Of a DNA stretch of 64,000 nt, positions 18,109 to 25,958 are shown in pieces. Origin of the DNA: Segetibacter sp. 3557_3 (GTDB taxonomy: Bacteria > Bacteroidota > Bacteroidia > Chitinophagales > Chitinophagaceae); the NCBI RefSeq assembly GCF_004354985.1, contig NZ_SMSK01000003.1:248001-312000 (forward strand), written 5' to 3'. Below the pieces are notes generated by a model. That model did not search any database and had not been told where the DNA came from. It worked only from the letters and a program-made list of their open reading frames with translations. Each line of letters starts with the position of its first letter. Within the stretch, counting starts at the first letter, position 1. The position numbers and the translations under genes are program-made.

Positions 18109-19698
18109 ATGATATCATCCGAAGGTTTATCAGGAATAGCATTGCAGTATATGAGCAGGAACAACCAGCCATCCAGGCCACTAAACGTTTTAGTCATAAA
18201 TGGACACCCGCGCAAAGCAAGTTTATCAGAGGCCTTATGTGATCAATATATTGCTGGTGCTACGGCCGCCGGCACTGTTGTGCACAGGATTGATCTTTAC
18301 GCCTTAGACTTCGAACCTAATGTTCTACATCATTCTCCGAACACCCAGTTCATGGAACCGGGACTGGTTCGTGCGCAGAAATTAATAGCCTGGGCCGACC
18401 ATGTTGTTTTTGTTTACCCAACCTGGTGGGGAACCATGCCCGCCATTTTAAAAGGGTTTATCGATCGTGTATTTACCGCTGGATTTGCTTTTGAGGAGAT
18501 TGAGGGTGGCACCGGTTATGCGCCGTTGTTGCGGGGTAAAACCGCGCAGCTGATGACGACCATGGACACACCCAAACTTGTTTACAACCTGGTTTACAGG
18601 GCGCCTGGTAATAATGCTATGCACCGTGCTACCCTTGGATTTTGCGGATTCTTGATGTTGAAAAATGAAATCTTTAGCCCGGTAAAATCAGCGGATGAAA
18701 CCCGCAGAAAGTTATGGTTGAACAAGGCTTACCAGTTGGGCAAAAAACTCAGATCAGGTGCGCTTTCTCCCACACAGAAGATCGGTATAAAAGCATTTTC
18801 CTGGTTTAAAGCAATCCGTTTCCAGTTTTATCCGATGACCTTTATTGCCTATGCAGCCGGTGCAGTTGCAGCCGGGCAAATGGGTTATGGGTATAGTTCC
18901 TTTATATTTTGGGTAGGTTATTTATGGCTGTTTTTCCTGGAACTTGTAACCGTACTGTCGAACGATTATGTTGATTATCCCACCGATGTTCAGAACCGCT
19001 TTTTTGGTCCCTTTTCCGGTGGATCGAGGGTAATGGTCGACAAGCTTTTAAGCCCAAAAGAAATGAGAATTGGCATACTGGCTTCACTTATTCTTTGTTT
19101 TGGAGCGCTCGCTGTTTTACTTGCAGCCGCAAAAGGAGCGCTCTCAACATTAACGATGACCTGCCTTGTGCTAACAATAATCACCACTGGCTATACCATC
19201 CCGCCGTTGCGTTTATCGTATAGGGGGTTGGGTGAGGCCACCGTTGCTTTTACCCATAGTTTCGCCGTGATCGTTTGTGGCTATATCTTCCAGGGAGGCA
19301 AATTAGCTGACCAGGTGCCATGGTTGTTGAGCATTCCCCTGTTTCTCAGTGTTCTGCCGAGTATTATGTTAGCGGGCATTCCTGATCACGACGCTGATAA
19401 ATCGGTATCAAAAAATACTTTAGCCGTTCTTTTAGGTAAGAAAAGGGTTGTTCGGCTGGCGATATTTTTTACGCTAACAGCGGCTTTGCTTGTATTGGTG
19501 TACCATCTTTTCAAGGTAGAGCAGGGTGCTTTCACCAACCTGCTCGTCTTTGTGGTTCCACATGCACTATTGATTGTTTATCTCTTATGCAGGTACCTCC
19601 GTAATCCTTATCCACCGGCCCGTATTGACGGCCTATTGGTTGCTGCATTAAGTTATATACTTTGGTTTGGATTGATCCCACTAATAAACCTCATGTAA
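18109..19698 (+). CDS. Fusion of NAD(P)H-quinone-reductase-like flavodoxin and UbiA prenyltransferase
   Basis: 529 residues with two domains in one frame. Residues 24-200 are a flavodoxin-2/NQO-type fold: NVLVINGHPRKASLSEAL at the FMN/FAD phosphate loop and VFVYPTWWGTMPAILKGFIDRV. Residues 225-529 are a polytopic UbiA domain with both Asp motifs, VLSNDYVDYPTD and AGIPDHDADKSVSKNT. The likely idea is that a quinone is reduced to the hydroquinone and then prenylated, or that the two steps share a membrane surface. A downstream ATG (18151) would remove 14 residues outside the fold; the first ATG is kept because AAGG precedes it. No stop or frameshift separates the domains. The substrate is unknown. 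Confidence 0.88.
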   Translation: MISSEGLSGIALQYMSRNNQPSRPLNVLVINGHPRKASLSEALCDQYIAGATAAGTVVHRIDLYALDFEPNVLHHSPNTQFMEPGLVRAQKLIAWADHVVFVYPTWWGTMPAILKGFIDRVFTAGFAFEEIEGGTGYAPLLRGKTAQLMTTMDTPKLVYNLVYRAPGNNAMHRATLGFCGFLMLKNEIFSPVKSADETRRKLWLNKAYQLGKKLRSGALSPTQKIGIKAFSWFKAIRFQFYPMTFIAYAAGAVAAGQMGYGYSSFIFWVGYLWLFFLELVTVLSNDYVDYPTDVQNRFFGPFSGGSRVMVDKLLSPKEMRIGILASLILCFGALAVLLAAAKGALSTLTMTCLVLTIITTGYTIPPLRLSYRGLGEATVAFTHSFAVIVCGYIFQGGKLADQVPWLLSIPLFLSVLPSIMLAGIPDHDADKSVSKNTLAVLLGKKRVVRLAIFFTLTAALLVLVYHLFKVEQGAFTNLLVFVVPHALLIVYLLCRYLRNPYPPARIDGLLVAALSYILWFGLIPLINLM

Positions 19699-19999
19699 TA
19701 CCCGGGAGAAGTTAACCTGGCTCTTATTATCATTAATTCTATGTGACGGTTTTGCGGTAGGATGTACTCTGTTTCTATCAGAAATGAAGATAAAACTCAC
19801 TTATTTTAGGCCTAATCAAAACCTTATACTTTTTTTTAACTACTTACCCCAGGTTGGAGATGATATCTTGATTATGCGTAAAGTCAATACCCGCTTGCGT
19901 TTTAGGTTAACAAACTAGGTTTTGGCGTAATAATTCAAGAAAAAAGTTGATCTGCGGAAGGTGCTGTTGGGGTGTATTTTTACAATGTAATCAGGAGCA

Positions 20000-20160
20000 G
20001 AAATATGGCAAGCTCAGGTTAGAAAGCAATGTTAGAGGCCTAAATCGAAGAGTGGCAAATTTATAGCCCGTTTCTGATAAGATAATTATTTTATAACTTT
20101 TTCATATGGCAAGCAATCGTTAGAGGCTGCTCCGTTTCTACGGAGGAGCCCTTTTTTTTT
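20000..20160 (+). ncRNA. Candidate small RNA, copy 1 of a duplicated unit
   Basis: The unit begins GAAATATGGCAA and ends with a terminator (20125-20160). Its last 66 bases (20094-20159) are identical to 20786-20851 in copy 2, while the first two thirds share blocks such as GTTAGAAAGCAATGTTAG and AAATCGA. The motif GTTAGA occurs three times in the unit, twice inside a GCAAT(C)GTTAGAGGC context. There is no open reading frame of note. TAACTTTT at 20094-20101 resembles a -7 box, so the transcript might be either the full unit or only the last 55 or so bases. Transcription and function are inferred; I recognise no known RNA family. Confidence 0.5.
20125..20160 (+). terminator. Intrinsic terminator of candidate RNA copy 1
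   Basis: GGCTGCTCCG and CGGAGGAGCC pair with one mismatch around a TTTCTA loop, followed by C and nine T residues. This is a strong plus-strand terminator. Confidence 0.88.
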
Positions 20161-20215
20161 ATGCGAAAACCTTTCGCTGGTGTTGTACGAGGCGTCATCA
20201 ATTTCCAATGTACTT

Positions 20216-20456
20216 CTACCTATTCATTACCTCGTATGTTTGTCTTTTGCCGAGATCAATCAAATCCTGGGAACTTAGTCCAGTATAAGTCAAACGATGG
20301 TCGTTGTTAAAGTTGACCGGTTTTCATAACCTTGCTATAGACGGTGCACGGCAGGCTGGGATTTCCGTTCTCATACACTTCAGAACTTTCTTGTAGCTGA
20401 TTTTGCGCGATGTTGTAATTATTCAGCTCTACTACAAACAACCTTAATTTTTTGCT
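20216..20456 (-). pseudogene. Frameshifted relic of a small protein gene
   Basis: Reading the minus strand from 20456 gives VVELNNYNIAQ...VYENGNPSLPC...SKVMKTG, then a stop; shifting by one base at that point continues as FNNDHRLTYTGLSSQDLIDL...QTYEVMNR and a stop at 20216. Together they make a coherent, charged protein of about 75 residues with no ATG at its head. The composition change-free join suggests one coding sequence broken by a single-base indel. I do not recognise the family. It lies between the two candidate RNA units. Confidence 0.55.
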
Positions 20457-20690
20457 CTAAAGCGTTTTACAAGGTATTTCTGTATCTCATGATATTGTAA
20501 AAACACGAACCTGAAAAATTTTTTTAAGTGATTTAGAGCTTGGCGATAATGAGGTAATGCGTCCGAAATACACTACTGGCGTGAGTTCTATAAAATCAAG
20601 GATGTTTTGCGATAATAAAAACCGGTAAAACTCGATTAATAAAACCTTAAGAACATCGTAGTTTTACTTGGTAATTGAAAGACGGGGTAA

Positions 20691-20851
20691 GAAATATGGC
20701 AAACAAGCGTTAGAAAGCAATGTTAGAGGCCGAAATCGATAGTTTGCAAATATAGACGCGAACTCCGGAATACAAAAGATTATTGTAACTTTTTCATATG
20801 GCAAGCAATCGTTAGAGGCTGCTCCGTTTCTACGGAGGAGCCCTTTTTTTT
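20691..20851 (+). ncRNA. Candidate small RNA, copy 2 of a duplicated unit
   Basis: Second copy of the unit at 20000-20160, with the same opening GAAATATGGCAA, the shared GTTAGAAAGCAATGTTAG block and an identical 66-base 3' end including the terminator. Here GCAAAC (20699-20704) can pair with GTTTGC (20742-20747); this stem is not preserved in copy 1. The spacing of blocks is kept between copies while the middle third diverges, which looks more like a duplicated functional element than a recent repeat. The terminator T-run overlaps the stop codon of the opposing acetyltransferase gene. Confidence 0.5.
20817..20851 (+). terminator. Intrinsic terminator of candidate RNA copy 2
   Basis: Same hairpin as at 20125-20160, followed by eight T residues. 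The last two T bases form part of the minus-strand stop codon of the acetyltransferase gene, so there is no space left between the two units. Confidence 0.88.
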
Positions 20852-21380
20852 ACCTTAAGTTTTCGTGGGTAAGCGGTTTTTGCATAATCAAAAATTCAAG
20901 CACTTGTCTCGGGGTTCCAAAAGTTTGGTCTTTAACAGGGAACGGTTGCCGTTCACCGGTATCCTGGAAGCCAAGTCGCTTGTACCATTCGATAAGCTCA
21001 GTGCGAACTGAAATGACAGTGATTTGGATTTGTTTGCAGCCCAGCGATCTAGCCACTTTCCCGGAAGCATCAACCAGCAATTTTCCAATACCCAGGTTCT
21101 GCAGCACAGGCATCACACTTAGCATGCCCAGGTGACAGGTGAAATGTACCATTTCAAGTGAAACACATCCTGCAAGTTGATCATCTATTGTGCACTTTAG
21201 CAATACAACGTTCGGCTGCAATAGCAAGACACGTAAGTAGTCCTGGTTTATTCGCAAACCCTCTATCAGGTCTGCTTCACTCGTCCAGCCTTCTTTCGAC
21301 TCTGGCCCACGATAGGCCATGTTAACCAGTGCATGTAGTTCAGCCACATCATTGCTTGTACATCTTGCTATTTTATACAT
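20850..21380 (-). CDS. GNAT-family N-acetyltransferase
   Basis: 176 residues from the ATG at 21380 (MYKIARCTSNDVAELHALVN); an ATG at 21413 would add 11 residues with no GNAT similarity. The acetyl-CoA binding motif A is visible as MLSVMPVLQNLGIGKLLVD, preceded by the CVSLEMV strand and followed by WYKRLGFQDTGER, the typical C-terminal GNAT signature. It transfers an acetyl group to an amine; the substrate cannot be inferred. Its 3' end runs into the terminator of candidate RNA copy 2, and it diverges from the Dabb-domain gene. Confidence 0.87.
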   Translation of the reverse strand: MYKIARCTSNDVAELHALVNMAYRGPESKEGWTSEADLIEGLRINQDYLRVLLLQPNVVLLKCTIDDQLAGCVSLEMVHFTCHLGMLSVMPVLQNLGIGKLLVDASGKVARSLGCKQIQITVISVRTELIEWYKRLGFQDTGERQPFPVKDQTFGTPRQVLEFLIMQKPLTHENLR

Positions 21381-25151: not shown

Positions 25152-25958
25152 TTATTCTGCCGCGGCAGCCGAGAGATCAAAGTCTTCGTCTTCAATAGCG
25201 TACAAGTGAAACGTCCGGTTATTTTTCATATTCAGCGCAGCAATCCTGTCATAGCCGCTGGTTGAGATTTTCGTCCCTTCATCGGTCTGAAAAATAGCAT
25301 GCACCTTACGTTGCTCTGCCCTTGGCATTTGCTGCCAATCCTCTTCTGCCTCGCTGTCTACCAGAACCCAGCGAACACGAAATGGCATATACGCACCAGT
25401 TTCGGCTTCGTTACGTACGCCTAAACTTGCAGAGGCTTTGTCGATGAGCCAACGAACGCTTGCATTTGGTGAAACCTCGAGATTAGATAAGAACCCGGTG
25501 TGACGGGACTCTACGACCACCTGGAGTGCTTTTTTTTGAGCCTGGTTGTGTTGTAGTAACCATGCAAGGTCGTTGGCAATTGCCTCGGGGCCAACTATAA
25601 ACTCTTTAAAAGCGAATGCCGCCAAAAAAGGGTATTGGTTTAAGACCAGCTCCTTTGAGTTTAAGATAAGGGGCAGCACCCGTTTTACACCATCCTCCGT
25701 TTGCATGGCAAGCACAGCGGAAAGTTCGTTCTGTGGCCAGGGGCGTTTAATAAAGTTTTCTGACAGGCAAATAATTGCGAACCTGCTATCACGAAGACCA
25801 TCACTCATTTTTGTAACAATGTTGTCGCCCCACGCGATCGCATGGGTATCGAGCCAGAATGTAATTCCCCGGTTTTTTAATTCAAGTGCCAAAGGTTCTA
25901 CATACCTTTTTTTATCTTCTCCTGCGTGTGATAAAAAGACATCCTGTTTTGCCGGCAT
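25152..25958 (-). CDS. TIR-domain protein with unassigned C-terminal half
   Basis: 268 residues. Residues 4-135 are a bacterial TIR domain: DVFLSHAGEDKKRYVEPLA, FWLDTHAIAWGDN, ICLSENFIKRPWPQNELSAVL with the likely catalytic glutamate in QNEL. Bacterial TIR domains often cleave NAD+ or make cyclic ADP-ribose signals in antiphage defence. The C-terminal part (about 150-268) has a predicted mixed fold with VRWLIDKASASLG and VRWVLVDSEAEEDW but no family I recognise. There is no signal peptide or membrane segment. No Thoeris, CBASS or other defence partner is adjacent, so a defence role is plausible but unproven. Confidence 0.85.
   Translation of the reverse strand: MPAKQDVFLSHAGEDKKRYVEPLALELKNRGITFWLDTHAIAWGDNIVTKMSDGLRDSRFAIICLSENFIKRPWPQNELSAVLAMQTEDGVKRVLPLILNSKELVLNQYPFLAAFAFKEFIVGPEAIANDLAWLLQHNQAQKKALQVVVESRHTGFLSNLEVSPNASVRWLIDKASASLGVRNEAETGAYMPFRVRWVLVDSEAEEDWQQMPRAEQRKVHAIFQTDEGTKISTSGYDRIAALNMKNNRTFHLYAIEDEDFDLSAAAAE

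Follow-up and report, generated by a model that had tools for sequence, protein, structure and literature searches.

The two tandem units on the forward strand of the window (the whole stretch of 64,000 nt analyzed here) are best read as paralogous members of a multicopy, probably protein-assisted family of trans-acting small RNAs (sRNAs), with a conserved seed and the terminator behind it as the working part; we give this reading a probability of roughly 0.6. As judged from sequence matches, the family is limited to the Chitinophagaceae in the genomes searched, and its fixed 3' tail, which also follows lipoprotein-like genes and occurs in phage genomes, points to a so far undescribed network of RNA regulation in a single family of bacteria. 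Each unit would be transcribed from its own promoter into an RNA of ~170 nt that carries three seed motifs and ends in an intrinsic terminator. Function would reside in the 3' module, in which the seed AUAU(R)GCAAGCAAUCG is directly followed by the terminator hairpin, and this module would act in trans through its seed, in whichever direction it regulates, while probably being held by an RNA-binding protein. The initial annotation had proposed a pair of paralogous, terminator-ended sRNAs; as a prediction this is upheld, since the promoter architecture is conserved, the terminator stem shows compensatory changes and multiple copies occur across the family.

Tandem units and their upstream regions

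Unit 1 is predicted to give an RNA of ~170 nt at 19,990-20,160 (+), with transcription probably starting near 19,990, and unit 2 an RNA at 20,675-20,852 (+), the ends of both being estimates. The repeat search returned the tandem pair at an offset of 691-692 as two blocks, D1 (20,091-20,159 and 20,783-20,851; 69 nt, 99% identity, with the final 66 nt identical) and D2, which comprises the unit openings (19,999-20,063 and 20,690-20,754; 65 nt, 82% identity). The duplication reported in the initial annotation is thereby confirmed, as are the three occurrences of GTTAGA in each unit and the lack of an explanatory reading frame, there being no ORF of 60 aa or more within 19,699-20,849. When unit 1 was compared with the whole genome using BLAST, unit 2 was found at an E-value of 1.6e-39 and four more 3' ends at E-values of 7e-9 or lower, which excludes a resemblance by chance. 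The pair is flanked by a flavodoxin/UbiA-type gene ending at 19,698 and by a GNAT gene on the minus strand with its stop at 20,850. The former (18,109-19,698, +) is a single ORF of 529 aa with flavodoxin-fold reductase and UbiA prenyltransferase domains (Pfam), a fusion that looked unusual. Further along the window, a TIR-domain protein (Pfam TIR_2; 25,152-25,958, -) is possibly defence-related.

A wider repeat search showed that the promoter region is also repeated, as the short matches D7, D10 and D5 at offsets of 684, 685 and 688; the duplicated unit is therefore an entire gene together with its control region. A total of 145 modules were retained after removal of close copies, namely 32 that follow a short ORF rich in Thr, Asp and Ala (class B) and all the remaining 113 (class A, with five viral copies and 108 from cellular genomes). 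The EM motif search over the 113 class-A copies placed a far-upstream element (family consensus GGTTGGrCATCAT) in unit 1 at 19,852-19,864 (+; GGTTGGAGATGAT) and in unit 2 at 20,538-20,550 (+; GCTTGGCGATAAT). A second upstream element (family consensus TTtGgCATaATnAA) lies at 19,920-19,933 (+; TTTTGGCGTAATAA) in unit 1, where it was found as an EM motif, and at 20,605-20,618 (+; TTTTGCGATAATAA) in unit 2, where repeat search and motif agree; in 96 of the 108 cellular class-A copies the score of this element, TTTGGCATAATnAA, exceeds 6 bits. Closer to the start, unit 1 has a -33-like element, AAGTTGATCTG (19,944-19,954, +; family AAGTTGnTTT, from a column consensus anchored on the -7 box), and the -7 box itself, TATTTTTAC (19,975-19,983, +; family TACTTTTG), of a predicted Bacteroidota-type promoter. 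The -7 box of unit 2, TAGTTTTAC (20,659-20,667, +), was located by the repeat search.

Upstream of the cellular class-A copies TAnnTTTG occurs in the sense orientation in 56 of 108 and in antisense in 16 of 108, and the anchored class-A consensus reads GCATnATnAAA ... AAGTTGnTTT ... TACTTTTG. By its letters this consensus is a predicted promoter of the Bacteroidota type; sigma-ABfr-like promoters have -7 and -33 elements, according to the available part of the report on GibS (PMC7366714). A promoter of its own and two conserved upstream elements suggest that the copies share a transcriptional input. At L005 and in 55 of the 108 cellular class-A copies (e.g., L040 and L044) a gene of ~520 aa stands head-to-head with the unit. 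Because the far element overlaps the start of this divergent gene, its conservation there may be of a coding nature; the window copies retain the element though the divergent gene is absent. The best NCBIfam match of the encoded protein was the BT2802 family, at 150.7 bits and thus far below the cut-off of 550. A link of the divergent gene to the control of the sRNA is possible.

The 3' module

The module has the order UUUUUC-AUAU(R)GCAAGCAAUCG, short spacer, hairpin with U-run. In unit 1 it occupies 20,098-20,159 (+), with five U residues, the seed CAUAUGGCAAGCAAUCG at 20,103-20,119, the spacer, the hairpin at 20,125-20,150 and the U-run, and it is identical over 62 nt to the module of unit 2 at 20,790-20,851 (+), with the seed at 20,795-20,811, the hairpin at 20,817-20,842 and the U-run. 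A covariance model built from 54 modules (R1) matches them at C29:268093-268153 and C29:268785-268845, respectively. Each unit carries two further, degenerate copies of the seed motif, at 20,007-20,040 (+; GGCAAGCTCAGGTTAGA and AAGCAATGTTAGAGGCC) and at 20,698-20,731 (+). The window units thus count among the multi-seed copies, and neither has the divergent gene. Elsewhere in the same genome (L233:7337-7400, on C29 near 147,367) the seed-repeat stretch CATATGGCAGGCAATCGTTGAGAGGGGCAATGGTCAGAGGCC resembles a decayed unit, the next 190 nt being without a module.

All 54 alignment rows were chosen by a pattern containing ATGGCAAGCAATCGTTA, so its invariance among them is by construction, and the 40 weaker, divergent hits of the model serve as the fair sample for conservation. 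Among these 40 copies GCAAGCAATCG is intact in 39, ATAT(A/G)GCAAGCAATCG is retained in 34 and AATCGTTA is present in 31, whereas the GTTAGA-bearing word AATCGTTAGA occurs in only seven. GTTAGA is not rare either, with 16 occurrences on the plus strand of the 64 kb against ~15.6 expected. The GTTAGA repeats are real, yet each of them reproduces the entire seed in degenerate form, and the suggestion that GTTAGA is the active element was not borne out.

Folding of the window terminator gave a hairpin of -19.5 kcal/mol (z -2.6), and the upper stem pairs across relatives despite changed sequence, which supports the intrinsic terminator named in the initial annotation. At five predicted pairs of the hairpin both sides have changed with pairing retained, in 15, 1, 21, 5 and 4 of the 54 rows; the loop UUUCYA is strongly conserved in the same alignment, and the length of the stem foot varies outside what the alignment captures. 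A simple terminator scan returned no terminators, probably as the stem is interrupted by a G-G mismatch. When the window module was folded singly, the seed was unpaired. In the RNAalifold structure of the alignment, and hence in model R1, UGGC of the seed pairs with the hairpin foot and two base pairs form inside the seed; an open seed in the cell is thus a prediction from the single-sequence fold. For the longer RNA, the predicted folds did not exceed those of shuffled sequences in stability (z 1.5 to -1.0).

Distribution, genomic settings and related systems

The same genome holds the 3' end in six places according to BLAST and seven module copies according to the covariance model. Homologous units were found in related genomes by the model scan, R1 matching 48 of 248 genomes of the order with one to seven copies each, and all 48 belong to the Chitinophagaceae (60 family members listed). 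BLAST at E ≤0.01 against 39 genomes (own genome included) gave matches in 19, i.e., the own genome, each of its nine congeners and 9 of the 14 other family members, and none in the 15 genomes of other families. In a draw from the class, R1 matched 5 of 295 genomes, four of them Chitinophagaceae (own genome included) and one a marginal match (E 0.005) in another family, and 290 were without a match. The exact 17-mer was present in 5 of 198 genomes of the phylum, all of them Chitinophagaceae (five of the eight drawn from the family), and a reversed control pattern in none of the 198. At least 119 stretches of GTDB contigs contain the exact 23-mer; the matches listed are mostly from Chitinophagaceae genera or generic Bacteroidota bins, with a few bins titled Flavobacterium or Pedobacter. 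Tandem clusters larger than that of the window, with three to five module units within a few kb, were seen in L089 (Niabella defluvii), L153, G022:C41 and G016:C18.

The class-B loci (L047-L148; an example from the own genome is L256 at C11:977566) follow an ORF (MKKLLFVLAIGAFAACNNG...DTTKK) that, by eye and from its composition, looks like a small lipoprotein. One representative reached 48.2 bits with the NCBIfam model for PG1828 lipoproteins, under the curated cut-off of 50. Class A, which otherwise represents the stand-alone setting, includes a few apparent 3' UTRs of outer-membrane beta-barrel genes (L006 and L042; assigned by eye).

Phage contigs are a further setting. The 16-mer ATATRGCAAGCAATCG was found in 54 IMG/VR stretches, although blastn of GenBank phages with 61 nt gave no matches. 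Among the 55 viral occurrences read, 38 passed a filter for hairpin and U-run, several of these being near-identical and two (L338 and L357) looking accidental; at least 4 of the 17 rejected (L163, L331, L332 and one in L334) have a hairpin and no U-run. The terminator stems on these contigs (L158-L163, L328-L373) are unrelated in sequence yet paired. Half of the 20 proteins scanned from the viral contigs matched PHROGs, DNA polymerase, neck protein, helicases and integrases among them. When tRNA genes were sought in 33 viral stretches, a module was within ~60 nt of one in five: on each side of tRNA-Phe in L334, directly after tRNA-Trp in L360, after tRNA-Met in L363, and before a tRNA in L332 and L163. 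A chromosomal module ~70 nt after a tRNA-Cys gene (L291, G221:C4; ARAGORN) resembles this phage arrangement.

The initial annotation recognized no known RNA family, which is correct with respect to Rfam 15. The window had no match at the gathering score, and at E ≤10 the region 19,700-20,870 gave six weak matches, all far below their gathering scores. FopS was not among the matches at either threshold, and the release may lack a model for it. A literature search, judged mainly by titles, yielded no account of a Chitinophagaceae multicopy sRNA, and a search with the seed letters returned, by title, nothing on bacterial sRNAs. The genome encodes two RRM_1 proteins, at C19:51596 and C1:148067, one of them ~136 aa and the other 95 aa long, and gave no match to Hfq, and since Hfq was not found the RNA-binding partner is presumed to be of the RRM type. 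To our knowledge, Bacteroides is without Hfq.

Among described systems, the LhrC-type multicopy sRNAs of Listeria form a set of paralogues, partly arranged in tandem, in which short single-stranded motifs recur; these motifs are C-rich, Listeria belongs to a different phylum, and the likeness is one of description only. Among 3' UTR-derived sRNAs, the one from the glutamine synthetase 3' UTR belongs to Enterobacteriaceae, with Hfq and RNase E pathways. It is likewise a regulatory RNA borne on an mRNA 3' end, as far as the available part of its report goes (PMC9731577), whereas the module described here also forms a stand-alone gene family. GibS of B. thetaiotaomicron is, in the part of the report available (PMC7366714), an sRNA of 145 nt from intergenic Bacteroidota DNA that likewise has a terminator and a conserved seed, extended and unpaired, but it is a single gene with its seed at the 5' end and two demonstrated mRNA targets.

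By architecture, FopS of B. thetaiotaomicron is the closest described analogue. As described in the available part of its report (PMC11697453), it is bound by the RRM protein RbpB, its family is stated to be deposited, and it consists of multicopy paralogues conserved within one bacterial family, with a conserved seed followed by an intrinsic terminator and canonical sigma-ABfr promoters. Nine of its members are intergenic and one is derived from a 3' UTR, the sequence has also been reported in a phage, and the host has RRM-1 proteins. The Chitinophagaceae units differ in that they belong to another bacterial family than the FopS hosts, that FopS measures 65-70 nt and has a single, 5'-terminal seed (PMC11697453) while the stand-alone RNA here would have ~170 nt and up to three seeds, and that many members here lie in 3' UTRs and carry an anti-seed, with no SusC-type target found in the crude set of start regions described below. 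Membership in the FopS family is at most a possibility: Rfam gave no match, R1 gave no clear match in other families of the class, and the likeness is judged from architecture.

Base pairing and alternative explanations

Seed words and their complements (anti-seeds) are distributed differently in the two settings; the expected values below come from shuffles that ignore relatedness, so that the counts are not exact probabilities. Extra exact seed words of at least 8 nt occur in 55 of the 108 stand-alone copies (5.4 expected) and in none of the 32 class-B copies; most of the stand-alone copies with such words have the divergent gene beside them (45 of 55, versus 10 of 53 without it). An anti-seed of at least 6 nt is present in 23 of the 26 class-B 3' UTRs that measure 45 nt or more (5.8 expected; the highest of 200 shuffles reached 12), and in class A such complements are depleted (4 of 108 versus 16.1 expected). 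The 5-mer most shared by the long class-B 3' UTRs is GCTTG (23 of 26), followed by the overlapping CTTGC (18), while 5-mers outside the anti-seed reach only seven or so of the 26. With 24 UTRs aligned on GCTTG, the flanking columns are only 29-62% identical, so the word is a conserved island; the next base is C in 75%. It starts 25 to 52 nt before the module (median 32). By eye, several UTRs seemed to present the anti-seed in a hairpin, but a shuffled control did not support this reading and it was withdrawn (stem of at least 5 in 9 of 24 versus 7.2 expected).

The search for mRNA targets did not yield the complementarity at gene starts that the initial annotation had advised looking for, insofar as no excess specific to the seed over shuffled seeds or the seed's own words was found. 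At 1,115 start regions of the own genome (a crude set from about one quarter of the genome, with SusC genes pooled with the rest), 47 seed duplexes reached -16 kcal/mol or lower against a mean of 43 for shuffled seeds, and duplex energies at 769 starts, mostly from other species, fell inside the range of shuffled seeds. Anti-seed 7-mers in 1,842 genes numbered 58 at 0 to +40 (shuffled mean 29.6; 6 of 150 shuffles reach 58) and 56 at -60 to -20 (30.3; 12 of 150 reach 56), an excess that is not specific because the seed's own words are equally common or commoner (78 and 53). Compared with other 6-mers of equal composition, several anti-seed 6-mers are frequent, AACGAT reaching the 98th percentile, and mostly lack strand bias; the exceptions are AACGAT, TAACGA and CTAACG, to which the start codon itself contributes. 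Exact 12-nt complements of the seed gave 37 matches in 70 family genomes versus five for the reversed pattern. Of 30 such loci, roughly nine lie on the antisense strand of module copies or seed repeats (three by script, six by eye), five are close to a possible start codon or 5' region (L300, L304, L323, L302 and L311), and the remainder lie within or opposite genes or are unassigned; the complements at start codons could be explained by signal-peptide codons. No perfect complement is universal, CGATTGCTTGCCB being present in only 29 of the 70 family genomes, and GCTTGC loops in intergenic DNA of the own genome (24 of 188) are within the range of other words.

The conserved GCUUG(C) of the lipoprotein-like gene, ~32 nt upstream of the module, could pair with the seed in cis or, alternatively, capture stand-alone copies in trans. 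We also advance a broader model, tentatively and with the odds somewhat against it: a family-wide 3'-end module (conserved 16-nt seed and terminator) would be attached to stand-alone sRNAs, to the lipoprotein mRNA, to some further mRNAs and tRNA operons and to phage transcripts, and all of these would compete for one partner, with the lipoprotein anti-seed locking or sponging the module and phages using it to tap or disturb the host network. Hfq-free sRNA regulation is understood in few Bacteroidota, and the module is a compact, highly conserved, family-wide candidate that comes with a natural contrast between stand-alone seeds without an anti-seed and lipoprotein 3' UTRs with both, and with phage-borne copies as well. 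It raises the questions of which protein holds sRNAs where Hfq is absent, whether the members in 3' UTRs and the stand-alone ones act on one another, and why the tail of a host sRNA is present in phages, at times beside their own tRNA genes.

Rather unlikely, albeit a serious rival, is the explanation that the module serves mainly to tag RNA 3' ends for protein binding, with the conserved 16 nt and the hairpin as the site of one conserved host RNA-binding protein that stabilizes or processes the 3' ends of sRNAs, lipoprotein mRNA and phage RNAs, with mRNA pairing of minor importance. The retention of the same 16 nt in unrelated settings, phage contigs included, and the two RRM proteins in a genome without an Hfq match fit such a tag. 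The anti-seed in the lipoprotein UTRs and its avoidance in stand-alone copies speak against it by indicating pairing at GCAAGC, although this pairing could equally hide a protein site; it is the lack of a specific excess at gene starts and of a universal perfect complement that makes a site maskable by pairing a serious rival.

The trans-acting sRNA family remains the preferred reading over the duplicated attachment site that the initial annotation offered as an alternative, i.e., a site at an RNA 3' end to which phages or mobile elements attach, which is highly improbable. It would suit such a site that the 16 nt are identical between host and phage contigs and in some of these directly follow a phage tRNA gene (L360 and L363), but the terminator stems differ among copies and remain paired, the promoters are conserved, two modules flank one tRNA in L334, the integrase lies ~4 kb from the module in both contigs where one was identified (L353 and L360), and none of the nine neighbour proteins scanned in the window is an integrase. 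Still harder to credit is a dispersed, non-autonomous repeat (REP/MITE-like) devoid of RNA function. Copies are indeed multiple, dispersed and in tandem clusters, but the repeat search gave no terminal inverted repeats bounding the units, the order and strand of seed and terminator are constant in the copies read, a promoter-like box precedes most stand-alone copies, 55 of 108 of these have the same divergent neighbour, and the stem shows compensatory changes. Equally implausible is translation of a conserved micro-ORF, ATGGCAAGCAATCGTTAG, as MASNR, since the frame is open in both window modules but divergent copies have ATA in place of ATG (ATATAGCAAGC, e.g., L258-L260) or an altered stop (TAT in L257, GAAGAC in L288-L290), with the RNA word retained in each case.
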